A stretch of 64,000 nt of DNA. Origin: Steromphala cineraria. Its lineage: Eukaryota; Mollusca; Gastropoda; Trochida; Trochidae. The position numbers and the translations under genes were made by a program. Under the pieces are notes generated by a model that saw nothing but the letters and a program-made list of their open reading frames with translations, did no database searches and had not been told where the DNA came from. Positions 6,001 to 34,717 of this stretch are shown piece by piece. The stretch's first letter is position 1; every line of letters starts with the position of its first letter. The DNA lies in assembly GCA_916613615.1 (NCBI GenBank), contig OU744726.1:56684987-56748986 (forward strand), given 5' to 3'.

Positions 6001-6070
6001 AATCTATATAGTATGGTTTAGGTGGAGTGGTATAGCTGGTCCTGTTGAAGTGGATAAATCTCTATAGTCA
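1..6070. repeat. 56-bp satellite array, left block
   Basis: About 108 head-to-tail copies of a 56-bp unit (core GTGGATAAATCTCTATAGTA, then a GGTTTAGGTGGAG-type segment) run from the first base of the window, so the array extends beyond it. Units differ by recurrent single changes (TTGCTGG/TAGCTGG, GGTTTAGG/GGTTAAGG, GGTTAAATCG). These changes recur in blocks: marker variants repeat at 560 bp (10 units, for example 1983 and 2543) and at 728 bp (13 units, for example 3270 and 3998). There are no unique spacers, so this is not CRISPR-like. The unit is not a multiple of three and stops occur in every frame, so it is not protein coding. Confidence 0.97.
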
Positions 6071-13600: not shown

Positions 13601-16600
13601 GTTGAAGTGGATAAATCTCTATAGTATGGTTTAGGTGGAGTGGTATTGCTGGTCCTGTTGAAGTGGATAAATCTCTATAGTATGGTTAAGGTGGAGTGGT
13701 ATAGCTGGTCCTGTTGAAGTGGATGAATCTCTATAGTATGGTTTAGGTGGAGTGGTATTGCTGGTCCTGTTGAAGTGGATAAATCTCTATAGTATGGTTT
13801 AGGTTGAGTGGTATTGCTGGTCCTGTTGAAGTGGATAAATCTCTATAGTATGGTTAAGGTGGAGTGGTATAGCTGGTCCTGTTGAAGTGGATGAATCTCT
13901 ATAGTATGGTTTAGGTGGAGTGGTATTGCTGGTCCTGTTGAAGTGGATAAATCTCTATAGTATGGTTTAGGTGGAGTGGTATTGCTGGTCCTGTTGAAGT
14001 GGATAAATCACTTTAGTATGGTTTAGGTGGAGTGGTATTGCTGGTCCTGTTGAAGTGGATAAATCTCTATAGTATGGTTAAGGTGAAGTGGTATAGCTGG
14101 TCCTGTTGAAGTGGATAAATCTCTATAGTATGGTTTATGTGGAGTGGTATTGCTGGTCCTGTTGAAGTGGATGAATCTCTATAGTATGGTTTAGGTGGAG
14201 TGGTATTGCTGGTCCTGTTGAAGTGGATAAATCTCTATAGTATGGTTTAGGTGGAGTGGTATTGCTGGTCCTGTTGAAGTGGATAAATCTCTATAGTATG
14301 GTTAAGGTGGAGTGGTATAGCTGGTCCTGTTGAAGTGGATGAATCTCTATAGTATGGTTTAGGTGGAGTGGTATTGCTGGTCCTGTTGAAGTGGATAAAT
14401 CTCTATAGTATGGTTTAGATGGAGTGGTATTGCTGGTCCTGTTGAAGTGGATGAATCTCTATAGTATGGTTTAGGTTGAGTGGTATTGCTGGTCCTGTTG
14501 AAGTGGATAAACCTCTATAGTATGGTTAAGGTGGAGTGGTATTGCTGGTCCTGTTGAAGTGAATAAATCTCTATAGTATGGTTAAGGTGGAGTGGTATAG
14601 CTGGTCCTGTTGAAGTGGATAAATCTCTATAGTATGGTTAAGGTGGAGTGGTATTGCTGGTCCTGTTGAAGTGGATAAATCTCTTTAGTATGGTTTATGT
14701 GGAGTGGTGTTGCTGGTCCTGTTGAAGTGGATGAATCTCTATAGTATGGTTTAGGTGGAGTGGTATAGCTGGTCCTGTTGAAGTGGATAAATCTCTATAG
14801 TATGGTTAAGGTGGAGTGGTATTGCTGGTCCTGTTGAAGTGGATACATCTCTATAGTATGGTTTAGGTGGAGTGATATTGCTGGTCCTGTTGAAGTGGAT
14901 AAATCTGTATAGTATGGTTTAGGTGGAGTGGTATTGCTGGTCCTGTTGAAGTGGATAAATCTCTATAGTATGGTTTAGGTGGAGTGGTATTGCTGGTCCT
15001 GTTGAAGTGGATAAATCTCTATAGTATGGTTAAGGTGGAGTGGTATAGCTGGTCCTGTTGAAGTGGATGAATCTCTATAGTATGGTTTAGGTGGAGTGGT
15101 ATTGCTGGTCCTGTTGAAGTGGATAAATCTCTATAGTATGGTTTAGGTTGAGTGGTATTGCTGGTCCTGTTGAAGTGGATAAATCTCTATAGTATGGTTA
15201 AGGTGGAGTGGTATTGCTGGTCCTGTTGAAGTGGATGAATCTCTATAGTATGGTTTAGGTGGAGTGGTATTGCTGGTCCTGTTGAAGTGGATAAATCTCT
15301 ATAGTATGGTTTAGATGGAGTGGTATTGCTGGTCCTGTTGAAGTGGATGAATCTCTATAGTATGGTTTAGGTTGAGTGGTATTGCTGGTCCTGTTGAAGT
15401 GGATAAACCTCTATAGTATGGTTAAGGTGGAGTGGTATTGCTGGTCCTGTTGAAGTGGATAAATCTCTATAGTATGGTTAAGGTGGAGTGGTATAGCTGG
15501 TCCTGTTGAAGTGGATAAATCTCTATAGTATGGTTAAGGTGGAGTGGTATTGCTGGTCCTGTTGAAGTGGATAAATCACTTTAGTATGGTTTATGTGGAG
15601 TGGTGTTGCTGGTCCTGTTGAAGTGGATGAATCTCTATAGTATGGTTTAGGTGGAGTGATATTGCTGGTCCTGTTGAAGTGGATAAATCTGTATAGTATG
15701 GTTTAGGTGGAGTGGTATTGCTGGTCCTGTTGAAGTGGATAAATCTCTATAGTATGGTTTAGGTGGAGTGGTATTGCTGGTCCTGTTGAAGTGGATAAAT
15801 CTCTATAGTATGGTTAAGGTGGAGTGGTATAGCTGGTCCTGTTGAAGTGGATGAATCTCTATAGTATGGTTTAGGTGGAGTGGTATTGCTGGTCCTGTTG
15901 AAGTGGATAAATCTCTATAGTATGGTTTAGGTTGAGTGGTATTGCTGGTCCTGTTGAAGTGGATAAACCTCTATAGTATGGTTAAGGTGGAGTGGTATTG
16001 CTGGTCCTGTTGAAGTGAATAAATCTCTATAGTATGGTTAAGGTGGAGTGGTATAGCTGGTCCTGTTGAAGTGGATAAATCTCTATAGTATGGTTTAGGT
16101 GGAGTGGTATTGCTGGTCCTGTTGAAGTTAATAAATCTCTATAGTATGGTTAAGGTGGAGTGGTATAGCTGGTCCTGTTGAAGTGGATAAATCTCTATAG
16201 TATGGTTAAGGTGGAGTGGTATAGCTGGTCCTGTTGAAGTGGATGAATCTCTATAGTATGGTTTAGGTGGAGTGGTATAGCTGGTCCTGTTGAAGTGGAT
16301 GAATCTCTATAGTATGGTTTAGGTTGAGTGGTATTGCTGGTCCTGTTGAAGTGGATAAACCTCTATAGTATGGTTTAGATGGAGTGGTATTGCTGGTCCT
16401 GTTGAAGTGGATAAATCTCTATAGTATGGTTTAGGTTGAGTGGTATTGCTGGTCCTGTTGAAGTGGATAAACCTCTATAGTATGGTTAAGGTGGAGTGGT
16501 ATTGCTGGTCCTGTTGAAGTGAATAAATCTCTATAGTATGGTTAAGGTGGAGTGGTATAGCTGGTCCTGTTGAAGTGGATAAATCTCTATAGTATGGTTA

Positions 16601-19541
16601 AGGTGGAGTGGTATTGCTGGTCCTGTTGAAGTGGATAAATCACTTTAGTATGGTTTATGTGGAGTGGTGTTGCTGGTCCTGTTGAAGTGGATGAATCTCT
16701 ATAGTATGGTTTAGGTGGAGTGATATTGCTGGTCCTGTTGAAGTGGATAAATCTGTATAGTATGGTTTAGGTGGAGTGGTATTGCTGGTCCTGTTGAAGT
16801 GGATAAATCTCTATAGTATGGTTTAGGTGGAGTGGTATTGCTGGTCCTGTTGAAGTGGATAAATCTCTATAGTATGGTTAAGGTGGAGTGGTATAGCTGG
16901 TCCTGTTGAAGTGGATGAATCTCTATAGTATGGTTTAGGTGGAGTGGTATTGCTGGTCCTGTTGAAGTGGATAAATCTCTATAGTATGGTTTAGGTTGAG
17001 TGGTATTGCTGCTCCTGTTGAAGTGGATAAATCTCTATAGTATGGTTAAGGTGGAGTGGTATAGCTGGTCCTGTTGAAGTGGATGAATCTCTATAGTATG
17101 GTTTAGGTGGAGTGGTATTGCTGGTCCTGTTGAAGTGGATAAATCTCTATAGTATGGTTTAGATGGAGTGGTATTGCTGGTCCTGTTGAAGTGGATGAAT
17201 CTCTATAGTATGGTTTAGGTTGAGTGGTATTGCTGGTCCTGTTGAAGTGGATAAACCTCTATAGTATGGTTTAGGTGGAGTGGTATTGCTGGTCCTGTTG
17301 AAGTGAATAAATCTCTATAGTATGGTTAAGGTGGAGTGGTATAGCTGGTCCTGTTGAAGTGGATAAATCTCTATAGTATGGTTAAGGTGGAGTGGTATTG
17401 CTGGTCCTGTTGAAGTGGATAAATCACTTTAGTATGGTTTATGTGGAGTGGTGTTGCTGGTCCTGTTGAAGTGGATGAATCTCTATAGTATGGTTTAGGT
17501 GGAGTGATATTGCTGGTCCTGTTGAAGTGGATAAATCTGTATAGTATGGTTTAGGTGGAGTGGTATTGCTGGTCCTGTTGAAGTGGATAAATCTCTATAG
17601 TATGGTTTAGGTGGAGTGGTATTGCTGGTCCTGTTGAAGTGGATAAATCTCTATAGTATGGTTAAGGTGGAGTGGTATAGCTGGTCCTGTTGAAGTGGAT
17701 GAATCTCTATAGTATGGTTTAGGTGGAGTGGTATTGCTGGTCCTGTTGAAGTGGATAAATCTCTATAGTATGGTTTAGGTTGAGTGGTATTGCTGGTCCT
17801 GTTGAAGTGGATAAACCTCTATAGTATGGTTAAGGTGGAGTGGTATTGCTGGTCCTGTTGAAGTGAATAAATCTCTATAGTATGGTTAAGGTGGAGTGGT
17901 ATAGCTGGTCCTGTTGAAGTGGATAAATCTCTATAGTATGGTTAAGGTGGAGTGGTATTGCTGGTCCTGTTGAAGTTAATAAATCTCTATAGTATGGTTA
18001 AGGTGGAGTGGTATAGCTGGTCCTGTTGAAGTGGATAAATCTCTATAGTATGGTTAAGGTGGAGTGGTATAGCTGGTCCTGTTGAAGTGGATAAACCTCT
18101 ATAGTATGGTTAAGGTGGAGTGGTATTGCTGGTCCTGTTGAAGTGAATAAATCTCTATAGAATGGTATATGTGGAGTGGTATTGCTGGTCCTGTTGAAGT
18201 GGATAAATATCTATAGTATGGTTTATGTGAAGTGGTATTGCTGGTCCTCTTGAGGTGGATAAATCTCTATAGTATGGTTTAGGTGGAGTGGTATTGCTGG
18301 TCCTGTTGAAGTGGATACATCTCTATAGTATGGTTTAGGTGGAGTGGTTTTGCTGGTCCTCTTGAAGTGAATAAATCTCTATAGTATGGTTAAGGTGGAG
18401 TGGTATAGCTGGTCCTGTTGAAGTGGATAAATCTCTATAGTATGGTTTAGGTGGAGTGGTATTGCTGGTCCTGTTGAAGTGGATAAATCTCTATAGTATG
18501 GTTTAGGTGGAGTGGTATTTATTGCTGGTCCTGTTGAAGTGGATAAATCTCTATAGTATGGTTTAGGTTAAATGGTATAGCTGGTCCTGTTGAAGTGGAT
18601 AAATCTCTATAGTATGGTTTAGGTGGAGTGGTATTGCTGGTCCTGTTGAAGTGGATAAATCTCTATAGTATGGTTTAGGTGGAGTGGTATTGCTGGTCCT
18701 GTTGAAGTGGATAAATCTCTATAGTATGGTTAAGGTGGAGTGGTATAGCTGGTCCTGTTGAAGTTGATAAATCTCTATAGTATGGTTTATGTGGAGTGGT
18801 ATTGCTGGTCCTGTTGAAGTGGATGAATCTCTATAGTATGGTTTAGGTGGAGTGGTATTGCTGGTCCTGTTGAAGTGGATAAATCTCTATAGTATGGTTT
18901 AGGTGGAGTGGTATTGCTGGTCCTGTTGAAGTGGATAAATCTCTATAGTATGGTTAAGGTGGAGTGGTATAGCTGGTCCTGTTGAAGTGGATAAATCTCT
19001 ATAGTATGGTTTATGTGGAGTGGTATTGCTGGTCCTGTTGAAGTGGATGAATCTCTATAGTATGGTTTATGTGGAGTGGTATTGCTGGTCCTGTTGAAGT
19101 GGATAAATCTCTATAGTATGGTTAAGGTGGAGTGGTATAGCTGGTCCTGTTGAAGTGGATAAATCTCTATAGTATGGTTTAGATGGAGTGGTATTGCTGG
19201 TCCTGTTGAAGTGGATGAATCTCTATAGTATGGTTAAGGTTGAGTGGTATTGCTGGTCCTGTTGAAGTGGATAAATCTCTATAGTATGGTTAAGGTGGAG
19301 TGGTATAGCTGGTCCTGTTGAAGTGGATGAATCTCTATAGTATGGTTAAGGTGTAGTGGTATTGCTGGTCCTGTTGAAGTGGATAAATCTCTATAGTATG
19401 GTTTAGGTGGAGTGGTATAGCTGGTCCTCTTGAGGTGAATAAATCTCTATAGTATGGTTAAGGTGTAGTGGTATTGCTGGTCCTGTTGAAGTGGATAAAT
19501 CTCTATAGTATGGTTAAGGTGGTGTGGTATTGCTGGTCTGG
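7627..19541. repeat. 56-bp satellite array, right block
   Basis: About 213 further units of the same 56-bp repeat, continuing in register from the transposon target duplication. It shows a large higher-order repeat: rare markers recur exactly 4312 bp apart (77 units). Examples are CGTATGG at 8471 and 12783, CACTTTAG at 8521 and 12833, GGATACATC at 10529 and 14841, and GAAGTTAAT at 11812 and 16124. A 1848-bp (33-unit) spacing follows (16124 and 17972). The duplicated blocks are not identical (for example TGGCATTG near 12803 against TGGTATTG near 8491), which argues against a simple assembly duplication. The array stops about 50 bp from the stop codon of the minus-strand cadherin gene. Confidence 0.97.
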
Positions 19542-19593
19542 TAAAGGTGAGGAAAACGCTGGCCGTGTCAGAAAAGGAAGTCGTCAGTGTGGT

Positions 19594-19672
19594 TTAGATG
19601 GAGAAGTAACTGCCCTCTTTGGTGGAGACAGGAGCGATCTGCGGGTAGGCTTGACACCCCTCACACTCCAAC
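19594..19672 (-). CDS. Cadherin gene exon 10: cytoplasmic tail and stop
   Basis: Acceptor GCGTCCAG|, phase 2, completing Arg803. It encodes LECEGCQAYPQIAPVSTKEG then SYFSI and a TAA at 19594-19596. The phase match and the open frame to a natural stop support it; the exon is short, so it is less certain than the others. The 56-bp satellite begins about 50 bp downstream. Confidence 0.75.
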
Positions 19673-22600
19673 CTGGACGCAGAAAGCACACGTTGCATCA
19701 TACAATACAGAATAAGGGCAAGATTAAGGGTTTGTCGTTTCTTTTAGTTAAAGACAAAACCTATGTATTGCAAAACATAACTGGGGCTAGTTTGTTTCTA
19801 ATCAGCTCATCACCATCAAAAACAAGGACAAGGCGATTTAGAGGACGATGTATTCGTAACGTAACACGATACCGATGATGCGGCGATGTCTAAGACTAAA
19901 AGGGGTTCAGATACCTGACGTTTACACTCATCACTGGGGATCCATTTGCAGTTTCAAGAGGCAAAATGCGGAGATTTCATTTAGGGACGTTTTATGCAAC
20001 AGTACACTATCACTTTCACAAAATAACACAACAATGGTTTAGTAGAACACCAACAAATTCTCAACATTAATCAACATTTCCTCAAACATGTATAGATAAT
20101 ATTAGACATGTACATCGTCTTTTACGTAAACACACAGTAGCAATATCTCCTTAGTTCAATATATATGCGTGTCACGGGCTTCACATTTTACCATCAGTAA
20201 ATACTTGGGAACGAGGTGCTGTATTCTAGCTGTCAGTGAAATGACTGGTTTTGCCAAATGACAATTGGGTGATGCCACATCCCAATCAGCCAAGTATAGC
20301 ACCTACCTGTCAGGTCTGACGTAGACGGGAGTCCTCTTGTGGCAGATGATGAGGCAGACACTGATGAGCAGACAGAAGCCGAGGATTCCCACCATCGTCT
20401 GGAGCAGCAGCACTCCATCACTGGACTCACACCCGGCACTCAGAGTCTCAGGACTGCCGCCAGTCCTCTCCCACCTGTCTCTCTCCTCGCTACTTGCTTC
20501 CCCGTGTACTGGCGTCGTTTTACTATCTTCCTCATTATCATCTATATTGTTCTTCTTCATGATCTTGCTTTTAGGGGTATATTCTGGAGCTTGGGTGATG
20601 CTGTTGCTACCATGTGGCTTTGTTTCCTTTGTCTTCTCAACATTCTTAGGTACAACTGTTGCACTGACGACTGTTTCTTTGACTAAATCAGCATTGTTGG
20701 CAGAAAATACATCAGTGACTGAAGTTGTATCTGAACAATTTACAATACTTTTAATTGCAAGTGTTGTCTTTTCTTGATTTTTAACCTCAATTATACCAGT
20801 AATCGTGTAAAAGATTTTTCTTTCGAGAACGATAATGTTGCCGACAAGATGAAGATGTTCTGTTACAACAGTGTCGGTGCGGACCATGGAGGCTACTGTA
20901 TCGTTGAGCGGGGAGTGCTCCACCCGCAACTGGAGACTGACCCAGCCAGCCACGGCACGGGACTGGGCTCCCAGGTCGCGTGCCTCCACCTGCAGTCGGA
21001 CAGTGCAGTTCGGACACTCCGGGACGGGGTCAGCTAGCAACAACCTGCCTGTGTCAGCGTCAACTTCGAATGTTCCATTCAACAGACATACAGAATCTGA
21101 AAAAGAAAGAAAGATATCTAAGTCAAAAGGCCTTACTCATTGCATCAATTATGAACTTTGATATTCCCGGCCCATCACTGCACTGAGGTATATCCGAAGC
21201 ATGAGTAAACATTTTGAAGGATTCGTGAAAAACCGTTTTGGAGGACTTGACAGGTATAGCCCTTTTATTGCACTGACGGATGCATGGACCGCGCAACGAA
21301 ATAAATACCTTTGGTTTCCTTCAGGTTATAATTAAAGAGTCACTTGCATCAAATAAGTAAACCTTGCTGACTGAACAGATTGATGAGGGACGGAAAAAAT
21401 ACCACACATAAAGCCCTAAACCCATATCGCCTTTGAGGCCGATAAGCTTAACATTCAGTCAAATATGCGTTAGAGAAAACAGCAAAGTATTTCTTAGAAT
21501 TAAAAAAAACCTTGATCCACAGAGAGAAGCCGGTACTTGATTTGACCATCTTGACCCGCGTCCCTATCTGTGGCTAGAAGGGTAGGAGTTGCTTCCCCGG
21601 ACCCTTGTGTATGGGCGAAGGTGAGGTCGGGATGTGAGCTGTTCCCATGGCCCGCCCAGACAGGCCCGTACTCGTTCAAAGGCTCCACCTATACAACAGT
21701 GGACATCAAACTATACAGTGAACGATCTACACTTCTGTTTTGTGTCTGCTTGTGTTTGCTAGTGTAGAGCATATTATCACGTTACCTGCACTGTGATGGT
21801 GGCTGTGCCAGTGTTCTGTCTGCCGTCCCGCGCCTCGTCCACAGCTAGGACCAAGATGTAGTGCCGCAGATCCACCCCGGACTCATCGCAGTCTAGCAGA
21901 CTAGAGTTGACCAGCAAGGATTTACCGTCCAGCCAGAAGCCGCGGACTGGGCGCAGGAGAGACAGCGTCACATTCTCACCGTCTCTGTCGTCTGGGTCCC
22001 TCACGCTGAACTTCACTAATGATTTCACTGTGAGGGAAACAAAACCAACCCGTTATTATAATTAATTTAAATGTACTCGTTTGAGGGGTCGGTTTATTTT
22101 GCATTTGAACGTACATGTATGACATTTGTTAATGTCTTTCTCAGACAAATGTGCTGTCATCAAGAGTTAAACAAGTGAGAAAACAAACCGAGTAAGTGTA
22201 CCATAGAGACCGACAGCTTGCGACAGTACCGTCATTAAGATGTTTGGTGACGTCACTGTCCTGCCATGACAATGGTAACTGGACAAAGTCTTATGTTCAC
22301 TTGTGCAAATTTCAGATAATGCAGTAGTTATATATATGTTATAAACATATGTAAATGTGTATTTTTGCCCTCTCAAACCGTCATTGTGGTGTCTGTCTAT
22401 AGAAACTACTCACCCCCTTCTCCCCCCTCTCTGACTGTCACATTGTAGTCCCGCTGTGAGAAGGAGGGCGGGTTGTCGTTGATGTTGTACACGGTTATGT
22501 TGAAGCCGCGCACTGTCTTGTGTTGAGCTGCATCCCTGACGGCGAGACTGACCCCCAGAAGCAGCGTCTGCTGGTTCATCTTGTCTAGATCCAGCCCCTT

Positions 22601-25600
22601 CCGCACGTACAGCACCCCTGTCTGCGGGGCCACCGTGTAGTACAGCGCTCCGAAACCTACAGACAACTCACTTGCACAATGCATTGCCATCATCATGTTG
22701 GGAGATAAATGTGACTAACGCTAATCTTGGAGGAGAAATTACCGTTGCCAAATAATCAAGGTTCAAGTGGTATTTTTTACCTTAAACGGGACATTTTTCA
22801 CTGATGTCGAGTGCTTTTAGGTACATGTAAGCGTTATTCTGTCAATTTGAAATGTAAAATTGGCAGACGCAAAGACATATAATATAATATAAGAAAAAAA
22901 TATATAAGACATTAATATACATGGTATATGTAGAATTTTGACTTCTGTTATGAACACTCAAAGGGTTTTGATACATTACCAGAATGACAAAGGTGCAATA
23001 AAGATACTACATTATACTTGAAGTCGCCACTACGACAGGAAATTGCTACAGTTCCAACCTGAGAGCGAGTATGTGAGTTTGTCGCCGGTATCCACGTCAT
23101 GGGCGGAAGTTATAGCTCCCACCACAGAGCCGACCGGAAGCTCCTCGGGGACTCGAACAGGGCGGATACTGCCGATTTCCGGGTATTTGTCGTTGACATC
23201 CGTCACCACAACAATGAGCACCGCTGTCACCATGTTTAAATCGTCTTTAGCTCTACAACACGCGGGCCTCAACTTGTTACACGCAGTACCAGCTGCAATA
23301 GCTATCTTAGATGACGTAACGAGGAGAAGTCAATGAATTCATTGAACTCAAAATACTGTACTTGACTAAAATAATGATTTTGCATTTACTTTTCTATATT
23401 ATCAATTGTAAACTCGAAACACTCAGCCCAGTTGTCCGTGAGGCAGTCTACGCCTTTAAGATAGAAGTCATCCAATTGGTCACTCAGCCAGACTCTGAGT
23501 TGCATGTCTTCAGTTCATCCTCAGATAAAAGCTAGCCTATACTAAGTAGCTAGCTTACACTATGTGGAGAGTGTAGAGTGAGACCCCGCGTATACTATGT
23601 AGCTAGCTTACACTATGTGGGGAGTGTAGAGTGAGACACAGCGTATACTGTATAGCTAGCTTACACTATATGGAGAGTGTAGAGTGAGACACAGCGTATA
23701 CTATGTAGCTAGCTTAAAATATGTGGAGAGTGTAGAGTGAGACACAACGTATACTATGTAGCTAGCTTACACTATGTGGAGAGTGTAGAGTGAGACACAA
23801 CGTATACTATGTAGCTAGCTTACACTATGTGGAGAGTGTAGAGTGAGACACAGCGTATACTGTATAGCTAGCTTACACTATTTGGAGAGTGTAGAGTGAG
23901 ACACAGCGTATACTGTATAGCTAGCTTACACTATGTGGAGAGTGTAGAGTGAGACACAGCGTATACTATGTAGCTAGCTTACACTATGTGGAGAGTGTAG
24001 AGTGAGACACAGCGTATACTGTATAGCTAGCTTACACTATGTGGAGAGAGTAGCGTGAGATACAGTGTGTACTATGTAGCTAGCTTACACTATGTGGAGA
24101 GTGTAGAGTGAGACACAGCGTTTACTGTATAGCTAGCTTACACTATGTGGAGAGAGTAGCATGAGACACAGCGTATACTGTATAGCTAGCTTACACTATG
24201 TGGAGAGTGTAGAGTGAGCCACAGCGTAAACTATGTAGCTAGCTTACACTATGTGGAGAGTGTAGAGTGAGACACAGCGTATACTGTATAGCTAGCTTAC
24301 ACTATGTGGAGAGTGTAGAGTGAGACACAGCGTGTACTATGTAGCTAGCTTACACTATGTGGAGAGTGTAGAGTGAGACACAGCGTATACTGTATAGCTA
24401 GCTTACACTATGTGGAGAGAGTAGCGTGAGATACAGTGTGTACTATGTAGCTAGCTTACACTATGTGGAGAGTGTAGAGTGAGACACAACGTATACTGTA
24501 TAGCTAGCTTACACTATGTGGAGAGTGTAGAGTGAGACACAGCGTGTACTATGTAGCTAGCTTACACTATGTGGAGAGTGTAGAGTGAGACACAGCGTAT
24601 ACTATGTAGCTAGCTTACACTATGTGGAGAGTGTAGAGTGAGACACAGCGTATACTGTATAGCTAGCTTACACTATGTGGAGAGTGTAGAGTGAGACACA
24701 GCGTGTACTATGTAGCTAGCTTACACTATGTGGGGAGTGTAGAGTGAGACACAGCGTATACTGTATAGCTAGCTTACACTATGTGGAGAGAGTAGCGTGA
24801 GATACAGTGTGTACTATGTAGCTAGCTTACACTATGTGGAGAGTGTAGAGTGAGACACAACGTATACTGTATAGCTAGCTTACACTATGTGGAGAGTGTA
24901 GAGTGAGACACAGCGTGTACTATGTAGCTAGCTTACACTATGTGGAGAGAGTAGCGTGAGACACAGCGTATACTGTTTAGCTAGCTTATACTATGTGGAG
25001 AGTGTAGAGTGAGACACAGCGTGTACTAAGTAGCTAGCTTACACTATGTGGAGAGAGTAGCGTGAGACACAGCATGTACTATGTAGCGAGCTTACTAGCT
25101 ATTTTGAGAGTGTAGAGTGAGACACAGCGTATACTGTATAGCTAGCTTACACTATGTGGAGAGTGTAGAGTGAGCCACAGCGTATACTTTGTAGCTAGCT
25201 TACACTATGTGGAGAGTGTAGAGTGTAGAGTGAGACACAGCGTATACTGTATAGCTAGCTTACACTATGTGGAGAGTGTAGAGTGAGACACAGCGTGTAC
25301 TATGTAGGTAGCTTACATTATGTGGAGAGTGTAGAGTGAGACACAGCGTGTTCTATGTAGCTAGCTTACACTATTTGGAGAGTGTAGAGTGAGACACAGC
25401 GTATACTGTAGGGCAAACTGACCGAGGTTCGGACACCACCCAAAGTCGCCCGAACTTCGGACACTTTTGATTAGAAGCTGACGAAGTTATACGTGCAATA
25501 TCTACATGTCATTTGTTTCAGAATGTTTCTTTGCAATTTGTCTTGATATATATTTCTCTTGATAAGCATTTTATTATCGTACCTATTTCCCAACTTACTT

Positions 25601-28600
25601 TTTCGGACAGAGGCAATAAACCGGTTCATGGAGAAAATTGGCGAAATATTTGTTTTCCTGTAAATGTTTGCAAACATTTCAGGAAATGTAGGAAGCGCCA
25701 AAAGATCATATGCGTTATTTGTTTTAAAAGAGAAACTACTATATAATCAAATTCCGATAAATATTTGCAATTAAAAAGTGAATTTAGAAGTAAATATCAG
25801 TATTTTCGAAATATATTAAAATGACCTTGGTTTGGACAGTTTTGACCATGGTTCGGACACTTATAGATTTTCTTTATAAAGAATTGAAAAACATATAAAT
25901 TAACTTACAATTGCTAAGGAAACATAGAGAAACATTCAACCAACACATATTACAAAATTATTTATTCTTAAATCATTTAGTTTAGACTGTACAGTGTTTT
26001 TGCATCAATGCTTGCAAATGCCATTGTGACGTCATCAGATTCTAGCGGCGTATTCGGGAGTTGCCGAGAAGTTTATCTTCGGAAAGGAAGCCGTGTATTA
26101 TCAGAATTTTGAATCATATTTGCAAATTATCGGTTTATCATTGTAAATAAACGAGTTAATATGTGTTGGGTGATAAAGTTAACCTTTTTGAGGCACGTAT
26201 TAAAGCTGTGATGTATGCGAGAACATTGAGTGGTACTGTCCGAGGTTAGGTCATGACTGTCCGAACCCTGGGCGAGTTGATATACACAATCAAAACCGTT
26301 AATTTCAGTTAATCTACAAATATTTCTACAAAAATAAATCGTAATACAATCAAAAATGTCATTCTTAATGGCATAATTGGCTTAAAATTGTTTTCTTCCA
26401 ATGATAATTTACAATACGATCTTTGAAAATATTTGGATCAGAACACCGTCCGAACCTCGGTCAGTTTGCCCTATAGCTAACTTACACAATGTGGAGAGTG
26501 TAGAGTGAGACACAGCGTGTACTATGTAGCTAGCTTACACTATGTGGAGAGAGTAGCGTGAGAAAGAGCGTGTACTATGTAGCGAGCTTACTAGCTATTT
26601 GGAGAGTGTAGAGTGAGACACAGCGTGTACTATGTAGCTAGCTTACACTATGTGGAGAGTGTAGAGTGAGATACAGTGTGTACTATGTAGCTAGATTACA
26701 CTATGTGGAGAGTGTAGAGTGAGACACAGCGTATACTGTATAGCTAGCTTACACTATAGGGAGAGTTTAGAGTGAGACAGCGTATACTGTATAGCTAGCT
26801 TACACTATAGGGAGAGTTTAGAGTGAGACAGCGTATACTGTATAGCTAGCTTACACTATAGGGAGAGTTTAGAGTGAGACAGCGTATACTGTATGGTTGA
26901 GATAATGACCTAATGCCGAGTGGTTATGGTTGAAATAATGACCGCTGACTGAGTGAATATCTGTGATAACCATCGAGCGATCAGCGAGATGGTTATCACA
27001 GATATTCACGAGGTCGAGGTTTTTATTTCACATACACTACATGGTTATTGTTAAAACTGTTTTCAATTTTTAATGAAAATATCAATATTAGCCGAATATA
27101 AGTTTGTTGATAATGAGTTCAAATGTGACAATGGTGTCTAGCATGGTTAACTTCCACTCCTGAGGAATGGATCAATTTCATGTTAACACTGCGCGTATTT
27201 CACGTGCAGTTGGAGATAATACTGGCGAAATTGTCGGTAAAACAATTCTAAGCCGTTTACCAACTGTGCATTTTCATTCTTTTACCGAGCTATTAACCTT
27301 AAAATGTCACACTGAACTGAACTATAATTTAATTATTTTGATACAAATTTTAAACGAACGTCATTGGAATTGTGTTTGGTGGCAAATGATGTAAAATGTA
27401 ATAATCCGTCATTAGTCAAAAATTGTGGCTGCACGGACGTCGTCTATTTCATCTTGTGATGCACGGACTTCTTGTACACTTCTTGTTCACGTGCAGCACA
27501 CAACCTAAAGCACATGGTTTCAAGAAGGTTGGTACAATGGAGTGCTCTCCGCGGCCGGTGTCAAACAGATATATTTGCCGGTGTTACGAGGTCTTTCCCG
27601 GAGGCAATTAAGGTGAGATTGATAGCAAAGTATACTTTATTTGTTGTTTCATGTAATAGACTCGGAAATATGTTTTAGCATTACAAGGAATCAAAAGAAG
27701 CGTGTACGCATTTTCTGCTTTTTTGTATTGTAATATGTATATATAATGCAGACACATATGGGTATTAGCTAGATTTCTGAATTTGAGATCAGTTTGGTGT
27801 GATATTATCTGCAATAAATTTCGTGTGAACGTTGAAACTATCAATCGTCCATTAAACAATAAGATACTAAATTATTCAAAAGTTGATGTTAGAAATGACA
27901 GTTCCAAACTTAAGTTTCTATTTCGGGGAAAGCGTGATGATATGAAATATGCATGTATGTAAATGGAAATGTGTTTTTGTCAGCACTTGAAATCAGACTG
28001 TTAGTAGCGTTAAACCTTTGAATGTTTCAGGAACTACGCATTGATGATAGCTGGACAGTTTAATATTTGCTGATATTGAAGTCGGCTTTGTGCATTGTTT
28101 CAAAAGGACCATTTCAAATGTTTGTGACCTCCCGACAACTGACTTCCTTTGAAGGATTTGGAACATTAATTGAAGAGAACACTAGCATAGATACTGAGGC
28201 CCAACGGGATTGTGTGTGGGAGTGTTTGATAAATGTAAATGTTTCAACTCGCCGCATGTTCAAGGAAACCAAATAGAAAGAATTGAAAGCAGTATAAACA
28301 TGTAATATGAAAATGACTTCAAAAGTTCTCTGTAATAAAGAGTATTTTTTCTGTCTTTTGTTTTCTTTTATTATCGTTCTTGCGGCCTTTGATATTCTTT
28401 AGAATGGCATATTGAAATAAAGACATAATATATCTGAATGCACAGGTGAAAATCACAACAAATTCTAAAGAATATCAAAAGTCACAATTAGAGTCGAAGG
28501 GTCATTTAGACCCGTAAGCCGAGGGTAAGTATTTTTCGAGGTGCGATACGGTGAAGATGGCGAGGCGTAGCCGAGACATGTTGACCGTATCGAACCGAGA

Positions 28601-31600
28601 TATCAGTTATCAAGAGGTTGGTTATCAGATAACCAACCTTGTGATAACCAACCTCCAGGTTGATCTAAGGTCAGTTATCTAAAAATAACTACCTCTGATA
28701 TTGACCAGATAACCACACCACGTGGTGTATAGTTAGCTTACACTATGTGGAGGGTGTAGCGAGACCGTGTTTCGTAGTCGAGACTCTTCATTAGAAGGAG
28801 GCTGGATCCAGAGCACTGGAAGATGTCGCTGAACTCGCCACTCACGGAGAAATGCACCATGTCCTTGTCCGGGTCGTGTGCCTTTAGCTCGAACACCACC
28901 TTACATTCAACAGAAGGAGTAAGGGATTTCTTATTTCCGAAATAAATGTGAACATACAAAACATCTCACCTGAACACAATGCTGCTACGTTAACCTCAGC
29001 TATATATATATACATAGTTGTCTCACCTTGTTGGTGCCAGTATCCTCCGGTACCTCTGCCACTGTCCCTCCGCGTGGGTCGGGGAACACAAACTCTGGCG
29101 GTGAGTCTTCTCAAAGATAAACACAAACCTTTGATATCATATCAAGCAATTTTCGTTACATCAAATTCAATATTACGAGTACATTCACCCATTAAATATA
29201 ATTGATGACGATGTCGTCGGTTGATTACAGGTTACATAACCTACCTTGAATAAATCTCCACTTGACGTGATTACGCTGACCGAGGAGGTGGAGAAAGTTG
29301 ACTAGGAATGGTTTAGGGGTGCGGAGTTGCATGAGCACATGTTTGCCCACTGCGGACCCATTGCCAAGTCTGAGCGCCCCGGTGCTGTCCCAGGATAGCC
29401 AGAACGTCTTGAAGGAGTTACAGTCGAGCCAGTAACCTTTCACTGAGCTGGAGGGTCGCAGACACTTGGTAAAGCAGGTGTCCTTGATGTTGTTGGCATC
29501 AGTGCCGAGAGAGAGGAGGAAATAGCGGGCGGTCGCGAGCTTGATGTTGTGGATCTGGGACAGGACTAGGATGGCGCCCGAGCACGCTTTAACCTGCATG
29601 ACGAGAGAGTCCCGTCCCGCGATCACCACTCCCTTGTCGTTCATGGCCACCACATCAATGGAAGACTTATCTACACCGGTCTCCGCCTCGATATATGTGC
29701 CTGCAAGTGGAACTCAATCAGATGATGGGAAAGAGGTAACTGATTTAGTCACTGGATAATGAAATTTTCTGTTGTGCATTGTCTACAATTGACTATTTTT
29801 TTATCATTCTTTGTGATGTGTGTGGGGAAAATTAAGATTAAAGATTAAGATGGAATTCCGATCTTTTGTTTGATATTACTATAGCATTTGATAGCGTTAG
29901 ACATATGAAGCCACAGTCTGCTGAGAAGGTGAAGGGTCACGTGATCCTTTTTAGACGGCCAAAAACAATAAGTCTTTTGAATCTTGTATCAAGGATTATT
30001 TTTTATGTTATTTTATGAATGCTTGACTACAAAGTAAAATAAAAGCTTCATCAATCACGCGTTTCGTATGAAGTATAAAACAGGTATCTTCGATGCATTG
30101 TTAGAATTTTATATATTCTTCTCCACGGTCGACGAATTACCGAGTTCACTGAGTATATGTAGTAAATAATAACCCGGTACCGAGAGGTTATGGAAAATAA
30201 CCTCGCGAGGGCGTAGCCCGAGCAGAGGTTATGTCCATAACCCGAGACAAACGGGTTATTATTTGACTTACACTCCCGCGGAAGACTCCTGTAATGGTTT
30301 CAACTTATCTTGTTTATATACAATTAATTTCAAAACGTTTAACTGATATCATTAGCGGGTTTATCATGTCTTGATAAGAAAAATATTCAAAATACCCCCA
30401 GATTAGGGTTTTAGAAATAAACGCTTGATTTCTTACATTATAAACTATTTTAGTACGGTGTTTCAACGAATGAGAAACGTTTTAGTGATCCATTTTGGGG
30501 GTTTGATATATACTGATAAGAATACTATTTTAGACTACTTACAATACCCCCTGCTTAGGGTTTTAAAACTAAAAACTTGATTCCTTACATTAAAAACTAT
30601 TTTATTGCAATATTAATATATATTTATAGGGAAAGCAAAAAAAAACAAGACAACATGACACACAACAATTTATATCAACTGGCATGGATCATCGGCAGCT
30701 CAACAGGTAAGAGCGCTGCTTGACAACATAGAGGTCCCTGGTTCGAATCCCACTGTCGTTGTTCATAAATCTCAACTTTCTTGTTCGGTTAAAAATCCAA
30801 ATCTTACAAGTCCAATTGTTTACGTTTGTTTACAATCTTATAAACGACCAAGGTGGTTATGTTAAAAACACGAGAACGAGGTTATGCTTGGGTTTTCAAA
30901 ACCCGAGGAAAGAATGCTGAGCGGAAAGTAAGACCGAAAGTGAAGCTTGAGGTCTTACTTCCCGCGAAGCTTTCTTTCCGGTCTATTGTTTTGAGGGTCT
31001 CTTGTTTTCTCGTAATAACCTCCCAGGAGGTTTTACATCAGGGCATTATATGCATTTACACCCCTTGGGCGGTTATATCCCTTCTTTTTTCAATTGGTTT
31101 TAACTCATAACTACCTTCCTATAGCTGTTTACCCCTTACACCCCTTGGGAAGTTATTGCCTTTATTTTAGTTGAATGTTATGTGCCGTGAGCTCCATCCG
31201 CGTAGGTTGGTTATCTCATAACCACCTTGGTCGGTTATAAGATTGTAAACAATTGCAAACAATTGGACTTGTAAAATTTGGATTTTTAATCAAACAAGAA
31301 AGTTAAGATTTATGAACAACGAAAGTGGGATTCGAACCAGGGACCTCTATGTTGTCAAGCAACGCTCGTACCTGTTGAGCTACCGTGGATCCATGCCAGT
31401 TGATGTAAATTTTTGTGAGTCATGTTTGTTTTTTTATTTTCCCCTATAAATATATATTAATATTGCAATAAAATAGTTTTTAATGTAAGGAATCAAGTTT
31501 TTAGTTCTAAAACCCGTAGCATGGGGTATCGTAAGTAGTCTGAAATAGTATTCTTGTCAAGAAATATCAAACCCGCAAAATGGATCACTAAAACGTTTTC

Positions 31601-34600
31601 AATTATTTGTATGTAAAACAATTTAGTTGAAACACCGTAATAAAATAGTTTTTATTGTAAGAAATCAAGCGTTTATTTCTAAAACCCTAATATGGGGGTA
31701 ATTTAAGTATTTTTTCTTATCAAGAAATGATAAACCCGCGAATGATATCAGTAAAACGATTTTTAATTAATTGTTTATCAACAAATTAAGTTGAAACTAT
31801 TGCAGGAGTCTTCCGCGGGAGTGTAAGTCAAATAATGACCCGTTTGCCTCGGGTTATGGAAATAACCTCTGCTCGGGCTACGCCCTCGCGAGGTTATTTT
31901 CCATAACCCCTCGGTACCGGGTCATTATTTACTACATGTAAGACCTACTCGGAGGTTGGAAGGTTTTTATATAAAAAATTCAAAGGTTTTTAAATTCAAA
32001 TCTATAACCCCAAAGACGATAGTCTTATTACAAAATCTCCAAAGGTGCATGCTCCCAAGGTGGATTGGAACGTCCAACCCTTTGAACCGTAAGCGCGCAC
32101 TCAAACCACTAGTCTAACGGGCCAGACAGAAGTGTAGGCTATTTTTAACAATCTAATTGAGGTTCGGATTTCAGTAAAAAAATCGGCACTTAATATAGTG
32201 TTGCACCTTTTACTTGTGATACCAAATACGGTATCAACCACGTGACGTGTCCATTGTCATTTGTAAAACACCCGGATGCTTTGCACGTGCATTTTGTGCT
32301 ATGTCAAATACAAAGAGTTGGTTGAACACACTGCTTGTTTTGAAGGAAACTTATTTTAATCGCATTTTATTCAGAATTCAAACGAAACTAAAAAGTAATG
32401 TAATCCAATAATGCAAGTTTAAAATAAATTCGACAAAAATCAATCCTTGATATTTGGTGGATTTTTTTTGTCTGATCAGTCTATGAATATGATGAACAGT
32501 ATGATGGTTGTGGGATGTTAATTTACGGTATCTAAGTTAGTTAAAACAATCGAGCTCTGTTTTCCTAGGGATTTCAAAACCTTCGGTCCTCAGGTTTTGA
32601 AATTCCAAGCATAACCGAGCTCGAGTGTTTTTAACTTTACATAAAGTAGCTAGGGGTGACTAGGGGTGAATGTGGCCACTTCCTGATGTATATTCTAATT
32701 GGTGTAGAGGATAAAAACCTCTGCCTAGGTTTGGAGGTTTATGAGATAATAACATGGATATAATAACTAGTGGACATTTTAATATTTGCAAAGCGATAGC
32801 AAGGGTTATTAGCAATTAATCAAGGGTTTCATAAAAGTCATATGCTACGCCTTCAAGTATTGTAATATAACAATATTTATAACTTCCCATATATTTTCCA
32901 TTTGCATTGCCTTCATGCTGATTCATATATTTAAAATGTACTTTCATCTTTTCAGACTTTTTGGACAAATGGAATACATTGCTGAGTGTTTTTACGATTT
33001 TCTCTAGTGTTATAACAAAATTAACAAATATTTGTTGTTTGTGTTTCAGTCTCATAAAGCCCTGGTTGTGAGTTATAGTGCATGCTGGGGGTGGTCCATT
33101 TTGCTAGTGGAGGAAGATATTCAGACGCACATTTTCTGAATGAAGCAACGTTTACTGCATGTTTTCATATTTTGTGCTTTAAACGAGGTTAAAGTTTACC
33201 ATATATGCTCACTGCATTCCTTAATGTATGGATGTTTTATCAATAGAAATATATGTTAACTCGGTGTTATATTAAACTTATAATCAACGTGGAAAACTTG
33301 AAGTATGTGTGTAAGAAAACGATTATAACGTAATTTCTTTGGAAACAATCTGGTCTGTAAACACCACAACATGAAAGCGTCCCCTACACCTTGTTCCATA
33401 TGGTGCTGTACAGTTTACAGAAAGGTGCACTGATGGTGCTGTACAGAGAGGTGCACTGGTCTACCCACCTGCCCTGGTCTCCCTGACCACACAAAGCAGC
33501 ACATACAGCTGATGGTGCTGTACAGAGAGGTGCACTGGTCTACCCACCTGCCCTGGTCTCCCTGACCACACACAGCAGCACATACAGCTGATGGTGCTGT
33601 ACAGAGAGGTGCACTGGTCTACCCACCTGCCCTGGTCTCCCTGACCACACATGCAGCACATACAGCTGATGGTGCTGTACAGAGAGGTGCACTGGTCTAC
33701 CCACCTGCCCTGGTCTCCCTGACCACACACAGCAGCACATACAGCTGATGGTGCTGTACAGAGAGGTGCACTGGTCTACCCACCTGCCCTGGTCTCCCTG
33801 ACCACACACAGCAGCACATACAGCTGATGGTGCTGTACAGAGAGGTGCACTGGTCTACCCACCTGCCCTGGTCTCCCTGACCACACACAGCAGCACATAC
33901 AGCTGATGGTGCTGTACAGAGAGGTGCACTGGTCTACCCACCTGCCCTCGTCTCCCTGACCACACAAAGCAGCACATACAGCTGATTGTGCTGTACAGAG
34001 AGGTGCACTGGTCTACCCACCTGCCCTGGTCTCCCTGACCACACAAAGCAGCACATACAGCTGATGGTGCTGTACAGAGAGGTGCACTGGTCTACCCACC
34101 TGTCCTGGTCTCCCTGACCACACAAAGCAGCACATACAGCTGATGGTGCTGTACAGAGAGGTGCACTGGTCTACCCACCTGCCCTGGTCTCCCTGACCAC
34201 ACAAAGCAGCACATACAGCTGATGGTGCTGTACAGAGAGGTGCACTGGTCTACCTACCTGCCCTGGTCTCCCTGACCACACAAAGCAGCACATACAGCTG
34301 ATGGTGCTGTACAGAGAGGTGCACTGGTCTACCCACCTGCCCTGGTCTCCCTGACCACACACAGCAGCACATACAGCTGATGGTGCTGTACAGAGAGGTG
34401 CACTGGTCTACCCACCTGTCCTGGTCTCCCTGACCACACATGCAGCACATACAGCTGATGGTGCTGTACAGAGAGGTGCACTGGTCTACCCACCTGCCCT
34501 GGTCTCCCTGACCACACATGCAGCACATACAGCTGATGGTGCTGTACAGAGAGGTGCACTGGTCTACCCACCTGCCCTGGTCTCCCTGACCACACACAGC

Positions 34601-34717
34601 AGCACATACAGCTGATGGTGCTGTACAGAGAGGTGCACTGGTCTACCCACCTGCCCTCGTCTCCCTGGCCACACACAGCAGCACATACGTCACATACAGC
34701 AGCTGGACCCCACCCAT
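19594..34717 (-). CDS. Transmembrane cadherin with N-terminal Methyltransf_FA domain, 10 coding exons
   Basis: Ten exons join with matching phases at every junction into one 2487-nt frame (828 residues): 34651-34717, 29245-29700, 29027-29106, 28742-28899, 23059-23252, 22414-22656, 21786-22027, 21511-21688, 20307-21096, 19594-19672. Domain order: signal peptide 1-22; Methyltransf_FA-like domain about 30-174 (LVMQVKAC, TFWLSWD); cadherin repeats about 175-276, 277-380, 381-486 and 487-605, with calcium-motif residues AHDPDKD, DVNDKYP, NINDNPP and ATDRDAG; a Ser/Thr-rich stalk 606-766; a membrane span 767-791; a 37-residue tail ending SYFSI. It is probably a surface adhesion or recognition receptor. 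Repeat 3 ends in LNEYGP instead of DxNDN. The tail is short and I see no catenin-binding region. Introns 1 and 4 hold minisatellites derived from this gene. The exact cadherin class and function are unknown to me. Confidence 0.92.
19673..20306 (-). other. Cadherin intron 9
   Basis: 634 bp of AT-rich sequence between exons 9 and 10. I see no further coding exon or element in it. Confidence 0.6.
20307..21096 (-). CDS. Cadherin gene exon 9: repeat 4, stalk and membrane span
   Basis: 790 nt between acceptor TTTCTTTTTCAG| and a consensus donor ACAG|GTAGGT. It encodes GTFEVDADTGRLLLADPVPE, a CPNC pair, VEARDLGAQ, and a long Ser/Thr/Lys-rich stalk with several Asn-glycosylation sequons. The hydrophobic span GVLLLQTMVGILGFCLLISV follows, then CHKR. 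A TAG lies in the donor itself, so an unspliced reading would stop at PDR. The phase-2 join to exon 10 is preferred. Confidence 0.92.
21511..21688 (-). CDS. Cadherin gene exon 8: start of repeat 4
   Basis: 178 nt, phase 0 in and phase 1 out. It encodes VEPLNEYGPVW and LLATDRDAGQDGQIKYRLLS. The donor is a weak CAAG|GTTTTT, but the joined codon and the continuing cadherin motif (SVDQ then DSVCLLNGTFEVDADTG) support it. Confidence 0.88.
21786..22027 (-). CDS. Cadherin gene exon 7: cadherin repeat 3
   Basis: 242 nt, acceptor TTTCCCTCACAG| and donor GTGCAG|GTAACG, phase 1 in and phase 0 out. It encodes KFSVRDPDDRDGENVTLSLL, FWLDGKSLLVNSSLLDCDES and TATITVQ. Confidence 0.92.
22414..22656 (-). CDS. 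Cadherin gene exon 6: repeat 2 end, repeat 3 start
   Basis: 243 nt, phase 1 to phase 1, acceptor GTCTGTAG|GT and donor GGGG|GTGAGT. It encodes GFGALYYTVAPQTGVLYV, then VYNINDNPPSF and YNVTVREGGEG. The NDNPPSF linker marks the boundary between repeats 2 and 3. Confidence 0.92.
22657..23058 (-). other. Cadherin intron 5
   Basis: 402 bp, AT-rich. Nothing recognisable beyond the splice sites. Introns 6 (22028-22413), 7 (21689-21785) and 8 (21097-21510) likewise hold nothing I can name. Confidence 0.6.
23059..23252 (-). CDS. Cadherin gene exon 5: end of repeat 1, start of repeat 2
   Basis: 194 nt, phase 2 in (TGTTGTAG|A) and phase 1 out (CTCAG|GTTGGA). It encodes AKDDLNMVTAVLIVVVTDVN, then DKYPEI and the VPEELPVGSVVG strand of repeat 2, ending LTYSLS. 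The frame stays open upstream to 23292, where another acceptor exists, but its phase does not match exon 4. Confidence 0.9.
23390..23494 (-). other. Possible cryptic or cassette exon in cadherin intron 4
   Basis: An open stretch on the gene strand between a CAACTCAG| acceptor and a GAAAA|GTAAAT donor. It is 105 nt, phase 2 at both ends, so it could be skipped or included between exons 4 and 5 without changing frame. It would add 35 codons including FYLKGVDCLTDNWAECFEF. Inclusion would break the canonical HIV-AKDD strand of cadherin repeat 1, and the acceptor has no good pyrimidine tract. Confidence 0.25.
23529..25410. repeat. 53-bp minisatellite, main block (cadherin intron 4)
   Basis: About 35 tandem copies of a 53-bp unit containing TAGCTAGCTTACACTATGTG, then GAGAGTGTAGAGTGAGACAC. 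Units vary mostly at GTATACTGTATAG versus GTGTACTATGTAG. On the gene strand each unit contains CACATAGT|GTAAGC, the exact donor junction of cadherin exon 4, with upstream bases matching the exon's last coding bases. The array continues at 26472 after a transposon. Confidence 0.95.
25411..26471. mobile_element. TA-flanked inverted-repeat transposon inside the minisatellite
   Basis: 1061 bp bounded by perfect inverted termini GGGCAAACTGACCGAGGTTC (extending GGAC) and flanked by TA on both sides (25409-25410, 26472-26473). Removing the element plus one TA restores the 53-bp unit. The GAGGTTCGGAC motif also occurs in diverged form several times internally. No transposase frame is seen. TA duplication and TIRs fit a non-autonomous Tc1/mariner-type element; the family is not identified. 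Confidence 0.88.
26472..26894. repeat. 53-bp minisatellite, second block
   Basis: About eight units continuing the array. The last three are a shortened 51-bp version carrying CACTATAGGGAGAGTTTAG. The block ends at a 5-bp sequence TGTAT (26890-26894), repeated at 28726-28730 next to the exon 4 donor. Confidence 0.93.
26895..28725. mobile_element. 1.8-kb palindrome-rich insertion between the minisatellite and exon 4
   Basis: Flanked by TGTAT on both sides; removing it joins the array to the exon 4 donor so that the junction itself reads as a 53-bp unit. It contains several hairpins: 22-nt arms at about 26951-27009 (GTGAATATCTGTGATAACCATC and its complement), GGTTGGTTATC/GATAACCAACC near 28617, and inverted arms near 28388-28480. 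Short open frames and an AATAAA-like signal near 28334 might be a captured transcript fragment, but no family is recognised. The ends are not clear inverted repeats, so the class is unknown. Confidence 0.6.
28742..28899 (-). CDS. Cadherin gene exon 4: middle of cadherin repeat 1
   Basis: 158 nt, phase 0 to phase 2. It encodes VVFELKAHDPDKDMVHFSVS through SLDYETRSRYTLHIV. The donor is CACATAGT|GTAAGC (intron bases 28736-28741). The last codon is completed by exon 5 to give HIVAKDD, the canonical cadherin strand. The 3' 30 nt plus the donor are the founder-like unit of the 53-bp minisatellite in the following intron. Confidence 0.9.
29027..29106 (-). CDS. Cadherin gene exon 3: start of cadherin repeat 1
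   Basis: 80 nt, phase 1 in and phase 0 out (donor AACAAG|GTGAGA). It encodes DSPPEFVFP through AEVPEDTGTNK, the standard beginning of a cadherin repeat with the calcium-binding Glu. The acceptor (TTGAGAAG|) is weak in pyrimidines; a GAG 3 nt upstream is an alternative. Confidence 0.85.
29245..29700 (-). CDS. Cadherin gene exon 2: Methyltransf_FA-like domain
   Basis: 456 nt between acceptor CACTTGCAG| and donor CAAG|GTAGGT, phase 1 at both ends. The product (residues 23-174) has the pattern of the Pfam farnesoic acid O-methyltransferase domain: VKACSGAILVLSQ, a YFLLSLGTDANN stretch, FKTFWLSWDSTGALRLGNGS and a terminal VKWRF. In metazoans this domain is generally an extracellular module without demonstrated methyltransferase activity. 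Four cysteines (DTCFTKC plus others) fit an extracellular setting. Confidence 0.88.
29701..30156 (-). other. Cadherin intron 1, portion next to exon 2
   Basis: AT-rich intronic sequence in which I see nothing beyond the exon 2 acceptor at its low-coordinate end. Confidence 0.5.
30686..30762 (+). repeat. tRNA-like sequence in left fold-back arm
   Basis: It contains an A-box-like AGCTCAACAGGTAAGAGC and a perfect B box GGTTCGAATCC at tRNA spacing, with a TTGACAA anticodon-like loop. The anticodon stem does not pair, so this is a tRNA-derived relic or SINE head and not a functional tRNA gene. Confidence 0.65.
31315..31395 (-). repeat. tRNA-like sequence in right fold-back arm
   Basis: Inverted counterpart of the copy at 30686-30762, with GGTAGCTCAACAGGTACGAGC and the B box GGTTCGAATCC on the minus strand. 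The anticodon stem is likewise unpaired. Confidence 0.65.
32050..32128 (-). repeat. Degenerate tRNA-like sequence
   Basis: The minus strand reads TTAGACTAGTGGTTTGAG (A-box-like), then GACGTTCCAATCC (degenerate B box) at about tRNA spacing. It is probably a tRNA pseudogene or SINE head. Confidence 0.4.
32528..32642. repeat. Imperfect inverted repeat
   Basis: Arms of about 50 nt around a short loop at TTCGGTCCTCA. The inner stem GGATTTCAAAACC/GGTTTTGAAATTCC and outer CGAGCTC pairs are visible. It may be the end of a hairpin element. Confidence 0.5.
32643..33395 (-). other. Cadherin intron 1, remaining portion
   Basis: AT-rich intronic sequence. I see no exon or named repeat here. Confidence 0.5.
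33396..34644. repeat. 79-bp minisatellite (cadherin intron 1)
   Basis: About 15 tandem copies of a 79-bp unit (some 78 bp) with very few differences, ending at cadherin exon 1, whose 3' end is the sixteenth unit. On the gene strand each unit reads the exon 1 codons for YVLLCVVRETRAG and an intact AG|GTGGGT donor, then CTCTCTGTACAG, which resembles an acceptor. Long overlapping open frames in the array are a by-product of the repetition. Confidence 0.95.
34651..34717 (-). CDS. Cadherin gene exon 1: start codon and signal peptide
   Basis: The start ATG (34715-34717) sits in a strong ACCATGG context. It encodes MGGVQLLYVTYVLLCVA followed by RETRA: hydrophobic, signal-peptide length, with a plausible cut after Ala22. 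The donor is GCAG|GTGGGT (intron bases 34645-34650), phase 1, which joins exon 2 as a Gly codon. The exon's 3' part and donor are the terminal unit of the 79-bp minisatellite in intron 1. No 5' untranslated exon was identified. Confidence 0.88.

Follow-up and report, generated by a model that had tools for sequence, protein, structure and literature searches.

Tandem arrays beside three exon ends of one cadherin gene in Steromphala cineraria and their probable birth from exon-edge duplications

The cadherin locus on contig OU744726.1 of the gastropod Steromphala cineraria raises the question of how three different tandem arrays came to lie beside exon ends of a single gene, and whether exon edges favour the birth of such arrays. 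The window, i.e., the whole stretch of DNA that was analysed, comprises 64,000 nucleotides (positions 56,684,987 to 56,748,986, assembly GCA_916613615.1). Its minus strand holds an open gene of ten exons (Table 1), which, as read from the sequence, connect in frame via GT-AG sites and encode a product of 828 amino acids. An apparent phase mismatch between exons 4 and 5 was removed when an acceptor for exon 5 with a phase matching that of exon 4 was found. In the product, PF12248 (a Methyltransf_FA-like domain) is matched with E = 3.4e-6 and PF00028 (cadherin, three stretches) with E = 4.5e-28, and its leader and membrane segments were identified by eye. The 120 of 215 protein matches listed are distant cadherins only, with a Pomacea protein at the top (28% identity over 51%), Pinctada and Mercenaria proteins among the next best, and no orthologue covering either the exon-1 or the exon-10 end. 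An earlier note on this DNA had placed arrays of 79, 53, and 56 bp on the downstream side of exons of this gene, and all three lie where it put them; no tandem array is listed within the region of exons 5 to 9. Two other structures were observed in the window: a large foldback in intron 1 (30154-31940), with arms of approximately 230 nt that are 92% and 89% complementary and one pair nested in the other, and a 351-bp tandem repeat of 4 copies (42735-44142) with 100% matches, which is apparently very recent.

Table 1. Features of the cadherin locus in window coordinates
Feature	Position	Strand	Remark
Gene model	ATG 34717; exon ends 34651, 29245, 29027, 28742, 23059, 22414, 21786, 21511, 20307; stop 19594	-	
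Exon 1	34651..34717	-	ATG and leader-like segment; ends GCAG/GTGGGT, phase 1; source and terminal unit of 79-bp array
79-bp array	33430..34688	-	16 copies, 97% matches
Exon 2	29245..29700	-	Methyltransf_FA-like domain (PF12248)
Exon 3	29027..29106	-	
Exon 4	28742..28899	-	cadherin LDYETRSRYTLHIV; ends ATAGT/GTAAGC, phase 2; source and terminal unit of 53-bp array
Insertion of 1831 bp	26895..28725	.	between exon-4 unit and remaining 53-bp array; 5-bp target-site duplication ATACA
53-bp array, exon-proximal part	26474..26890 (copies at 26474-26881)	-	7.7 copies
Terminal-inverted-repeat element of 1061 bp	25411..26471	.	within 53-bp array; 29-nt inverted ends, TA target-site duplication
53-bp array, distal part	23534..25407	-	35 copies; self-matches at 371 bp (7 units)
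Exons 5-9 and introns	20307..23252	-	cadherin domains, membrane anchor (by eye)
Exon 10 up to stop codon	19594..19672	-	end CTCCATCTAAACCACACT, extending past stop, matches 56-bp unit 16/18
56-bp satellite	1..19538	-	begins about 55 bp past stop and extends beyond the window by about 20.8 kb to the left; interruption at about 6068-7627

The 79-bp unit consists of 40 bp of the exon-1 end and 39 bp of intron that include the donor, and exon 1 itself is directly the terminal unit of the array. At its far end, the array grades by eye into intron sequence resembling the intron half of the unit. For each of the three units, 19 exon boundaries (±45 bp) were scored against 1000 dinucleotide shuffles each, and the top-scoring boundary of every unit was the adjacent one. 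The 79-bp unit scored 151 against the exon-1 donor (maximum of the null, 37; next-best boundary, 19).

The 53-bp unit contains the end of exon 4 and its donor, against which it scored 50 (maximum of the null, 29; next-best boundary, 18). The exon-4 unit is in register with the array because the gap between them is an insertion flanked by a target-site duplication: ATACA flanks the insertion on both sides, and joining the flanks yields a unit of 51 bp that resembles the two units next to it (51 and 51 bp). Leaving out the terminal-inverted-repeat element likewise restores the register of the array, and the two empty sites give a 51- and 53-bp register; both insertions came later than the array. 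The earlier proposal that the real exon-donor junction is a terminal unit of its array is thus borne out, at once for the 79-bp array and, for the 53-bp array, when the insertion is recognised; in the alignment of units to exon ends that the note had called for, both units match far better than shuffled sequence.

The 56-bp satellite extends from -20845 to 19538 in window coordinates, i.e., approximately 40.4 kb including an interruption of 1.6 kb. Its unit scored 26 against the stop-codon edge of exon 10 (maximum of the null, 25), which is a weak match, albeit the best among the 19 boundaries, and it matched two other boundaries more weakly still, scoring 19 (p = 0.003) at the exon-2 donor and 16 (p = 0.025) at the exon-5 acceptor. 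The match to the stop edge is an 18-bp core. A search of the whole gene was not significant (26; the maximum of 40 shuffles was 35), and one of exon 10 and the 3'UTR only gave p = 0.00095 (20,000 shuffles of the unit) and p = 0.002 (5000 shuffles of the region); 2 of 3720 real 128-bp windows scored as high. After 57 comparisons, this match appears borderline. Homology to exon ends is strongly supported for the 79- and 53-bp units and weakly for the 56-bp unit.

Divergence along the 56-bp block is 0.024 to 0.035 in 18 of 20 bins of 2 kb, and the other two bins contain non-array sequence. The 41 kb past the stop codon contain a single AATAAA (at +1071) and one ATTAAA (at +13.0 kb), and the 3' end of the cadherin transcript may lie inside satellite sequence. 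To the left, the satellite ends next to a reading frame on the plus strand that shows a weak match to CpG_bind_C (E = 0.0047, below the cut-off) and the stop codon of which overlaps an AATAAA; the satellite seems to occupy the space between two converging gene ends. The 56-bp unit, the length of tens of kilobases, and the multi-unit periods present in the arrays are as in dispersed satellite families, whereas the unit here is confined to one block: all 262 genome-wide copies (262/262) of an exact 32-mer lie in it, and dispersed satellite DNA was therefore rejected as a description of this array. DNA searches with parts of the 79-bp and of the 53-bp array, which skip very common words, likewise found this locus only in the 1.27-Gb genome (281 contigs). 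Occurrence of the same satellites throughout the genome, which the earlier note had named as evidence against its proposal, was thus not what we found.

We consider it fairly probable (about 0.6) that three independent minisatellites or satellites were born inside one gene from tandem duplications of exon 3' edges. Each time, a small tandem duplication would have spanned the exon 3' edge, i.e., the exon-1 donor, the exon-4 donor, and the stop codon of exon 10. Selection for coding and splicing would hold the exon's own copy fixed, and the copies on the intron side or downstream would be free to multiply through slippage or unequal exchange and to be homogenised locally, in a neutral expansion. 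Splicing would proceed correctly from the first donor via exon definition. The matches between units and edges, the terminal-unit register, the occurrence of the arrays only here, a paralogue with the exon-4 edge and no array (see below), the later insertions, and the even divergence all speak for this explanation; against it, the 56-bp case stands on an 18-bp core match.

A further point against it is the strain on purely random seeding. Stripped of arrays and insertions, the locus has 8847 bases; the chance that three randomly placed seeds (79, 53, and 56 bp) each cover an exon 3' edge in it is P = 2.0e-4, or P = 1.4e-3 if any edge counts. These values are not true significance levels, since the locus was picked after the fact because of its pattern. 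In a rival explanation, exon edges, donors above all, are hot spots for array birth in this genome on account of some mechanism; a GC step from exon to intron, breaks linked to transcription or splicing, or AGGT microhomology would be examples. We regard this as a tentative and rather unlikely alternative, to which the 3/3 arrays of the cadherin gene at exon edges lend some weight, as do other genes.

Three further exon-edge arrays were found at other genes, two at donors and one at an acceptor. At the ASC gene that lies approximately 48 kb left of the window (L013:1635-4848 on C32, about 45-48 kb left), the first unit of a 56-bp array of 58 copies is the exon-donor junction of an ASC-family (sodium-channel-like) exon, which ends ATCATGG/GTGAGT (Pfam E = 1.9e-4, below its cut-off). 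A 54-bp array of 8 copies comes next, and the reading frame of its candidate source exon stops. The other two come from 12 additional loci of 10 kb each, sampled at round positions on C1-C4 and C32; 8 of the 12 contain an array longer than 150 bp. A 103-bp array of 10 copies (L025:30-1066; C3:5.0 Mb) carries the end and donor of an EGF-like exon (Laminin EGF, E = 0.011, below the cut-off), which is its terminal unit. A 90-bp array of 4 copies (L024:6270-6633; C2:15.0 Mb) lies upstream of a calcyphosin-like exon (PDB match, E = 1.6e-20), the real acceptor of which is the terminal unit; exon 5' edges can therefore also seed arrays, and a rule restricted to donors was rejected. Both belong to the nine complex arrays of at least 3.9 copies in the sample, a count that excludes the simple-sequence arrays of L026 (complexity filter) and all arrays of less than 3.9 copies. 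The proportion of 2/9 has P = 0.028 if 3% is expected (a guess from gene numbers), 0.07 if 5%, and 0.23 if 10%. In the other seven arrays, no exon could be recognised either by eye or in the small number of frames scanned, the left flank of one being beyond the sequence examined; nor was one recognisable by eye at the four arrays of the sampled locus L023. Beside 16 arrays there are 82 reading frames, ten of which were scanned with Pfam, with one weak match and nine without any.

A donor bias was also looked for on C1 with patterns of three 8-mers 50-80 bp apart. Within the first 55 Mb, the matches listed for the donor pattern AGGTRAGT make up at least 9 separate arrays, and the scrambled 8-mers gave 1 (AGTTRAGG, 55 Mb), 4 (GGTARTGA, 55 Mb), and at least 2 (AGTGRAGT, first 32.4 Mb, among the matches listed); the background frequency of the scrambled 8-mers in 303 kb (18, 18, and 27) is equal to or higher than that of the donor (18). 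The 9 arrays in 55 Mb compare with 7 in 142.4 Mb for the three scrambled 8-mers pooled, an approximately threefold difference (p = 0.016) in small numbers, which is slightly favoured by the donor stretch ending on a match (the 100th). This enrichment on part of C1 is a hint only. Raw match counts show no excess of the donor over the reversed pattern (4525 vs 5078) and differ widely among controls (4043, 2098, and 5122), and the donor scores of 24 arrays were in no general excess over shuffles.

The earlier note had proposed that arrays are seeded repeatedly at exon ends of this gene, for example by R-loop-associated amplification at donor sites. The seeding itself is strongly indicated for the 79- and 53-bp arrays and weakly for the 56-bp array, and the bias toward edges is suggested but unproven. 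The donor-linked mechanism does not fit the acceptor-edge array elsewhere or the stop-edge array here. R-loop-driven amplification goes with a G-rich coding strand in the repeats; the coding-strand G-skew is +0.16, -0.30, and -0.57 in the cadherin gene and -0.31, +0.48, and -0.14 in the others (two of the six units being positive and four negative), and without a constant sign this mechanism was rejected, which also weighs against hot spots. The note had suggested repeating the comparison at other cadherin paralogues: in 17 exon loci of paralogues, taken with flanks of 1.5 kb (some of them overlapping, mostly exon-2-like), there is no array of at least 3 copies, which likewise weighs against hot spots. 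That short tandem duplication across exon-intron boundaries is unusually frequent here, such that genes gather arrays of their own with copied splice sites, and that one such array has grown into a 40-kb satellite, is a doubtful proposition; if true, splice-site-bearing duplications would be a recurrent source of new satellites.

It is very improbable that the arrays came first and that exonisation of satellite sequence gave rise to the end of exon 1 or of exon 10. The leader and the C-terminal segment may be young as far as the homologues reached, all distant relatives, can tell; however, the edge of exon 4 is common to the paralogue L036 (42% identity in the stretch that matches), in which the corresponding exon ends at the same position and phase (ATCAG/GTAAAA vs ATAGT/GTAAGC) with no array in the 1.5 kb examined beyond it. 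The exon-4 edge is therefore older than the 53-bp array. The ATG of exon 1 lies outside the 79-bp array, whose far end runs into the unit-like intron sequence, and for exons 1 and 10 we infer the same order, with the exon first. In intron gain by tandem duplication, the passages of PMC4974935 on ATP2A1 and potato RdRp describe duplication of an AG/GT-bearing segment, and such a segment is duplicated beside an exon here as well. Unlike in those cases, the copies sit in an existing intron: the exon-4 intron is shared with L036 in position and phase, and a new intron between duplicated copies was rejected for it. Repeated matches to the domains of the cadherin gene were also observed at C6:36776466-36783947, C5:23693009-23705243, and C43:6488503-6505282, with match starts exactly 1413 bp apart on C6 and mostly approximately 2005 bp apart on C43, which suggests tandem copies of exons or genes.

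Slightly less probable still is that the arrays are functional, the extra donors, as decoys or as platforms for U1 binding, tuning splicing or keeping polyadenylation from occurring prematurely. Nearly all units have an intact donor, the GT being intact in 41 of 43 aligned 53-bp units, 15 of 15 79-bp units, and 57 of 57 units of the ASC array, and the scarcity of AATAAA and ATTAAA past the stop codon would suit such a role. The donor hexamers, however, show no extra conservation over other 6-bp windows (fractions of 0.17, 0.84, 0.21, and 0.34) and hence no sign of selection. Reading through the first donor brings an immediate stop (AGG* in exon 1, HIV* in exon 4), and use of later donors would be harmful. 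Intact but no more conserved than their surroundings, the copied donors look like passengers, as passive copying predicts. A human minisatellite that reportedly provides multiple splice donor sites, to judge by the title of a study by Turri from 1995, and that we take to be in the gene 6-16/IFI6, favours function to some extent and is alike in carrying splice donors. At our locus, too, units of tens of bp with variants are repeated in tandem and the real junction lies inside the repeat (79 and 53 bp; not applicable to 56 bp). The present arrays differ in having units of 53-79 bp, in being three in one gene, one of them a 40-kb array at a stop edge, and in that their extra donors would add stops if used. 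An assembly artefact or chance similarity is hardly credible: long arrays are hard to assemble and the 56-bp match alone could be chance, but collapse or misjoin would not be expected to yield variant units, multi-unit patterns, or insertions flanked by clean target-site duplications, and the shuffle tests exclude chance for the 79- and 53-bp units.

Intronic minisatellites are said to have been studied in connection with alternative splicing in C. elegans. In Sparus aurata, intronic minisatellites with length variants occur in introns 1 and 3 of the growth hormone gene, and a 150-bp block lies at the 5' end of intron 1 of myostatin-2 (PMC3045353); these are likewise tandem blocks in introns, one at an intron start, whereas an exon end within the blocks is not stated in the passages concerned. 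The open-licence papers listed on minisatellites and splice edges, intron gain, and tandem repeats in bivalve cadherins or genomes describe, in their titles and the beginnings of their abstracts, no case of several exon-edge arrays in one gene. Single exon-edge repeats have already been reported, and three in one gene is unusual.

The birth of a minisatellite or satellite is seldom caught with its seed still identifiable. An exon edge is a labelled seed, in which the copy held by selection records the ancestral sequence, so that the origin and the direction of growth can be read. The locus also raises the question of how a gene is spliced correctly with dozens of intact donors just past the real ones. 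Exon edges of this genome may be prone to array growth; if they are truly favoured, array birth would be tied to gene structure, as a source of private satellites, and if they are not, the exon edge would still be a clean natural marker for the birth of arrays.
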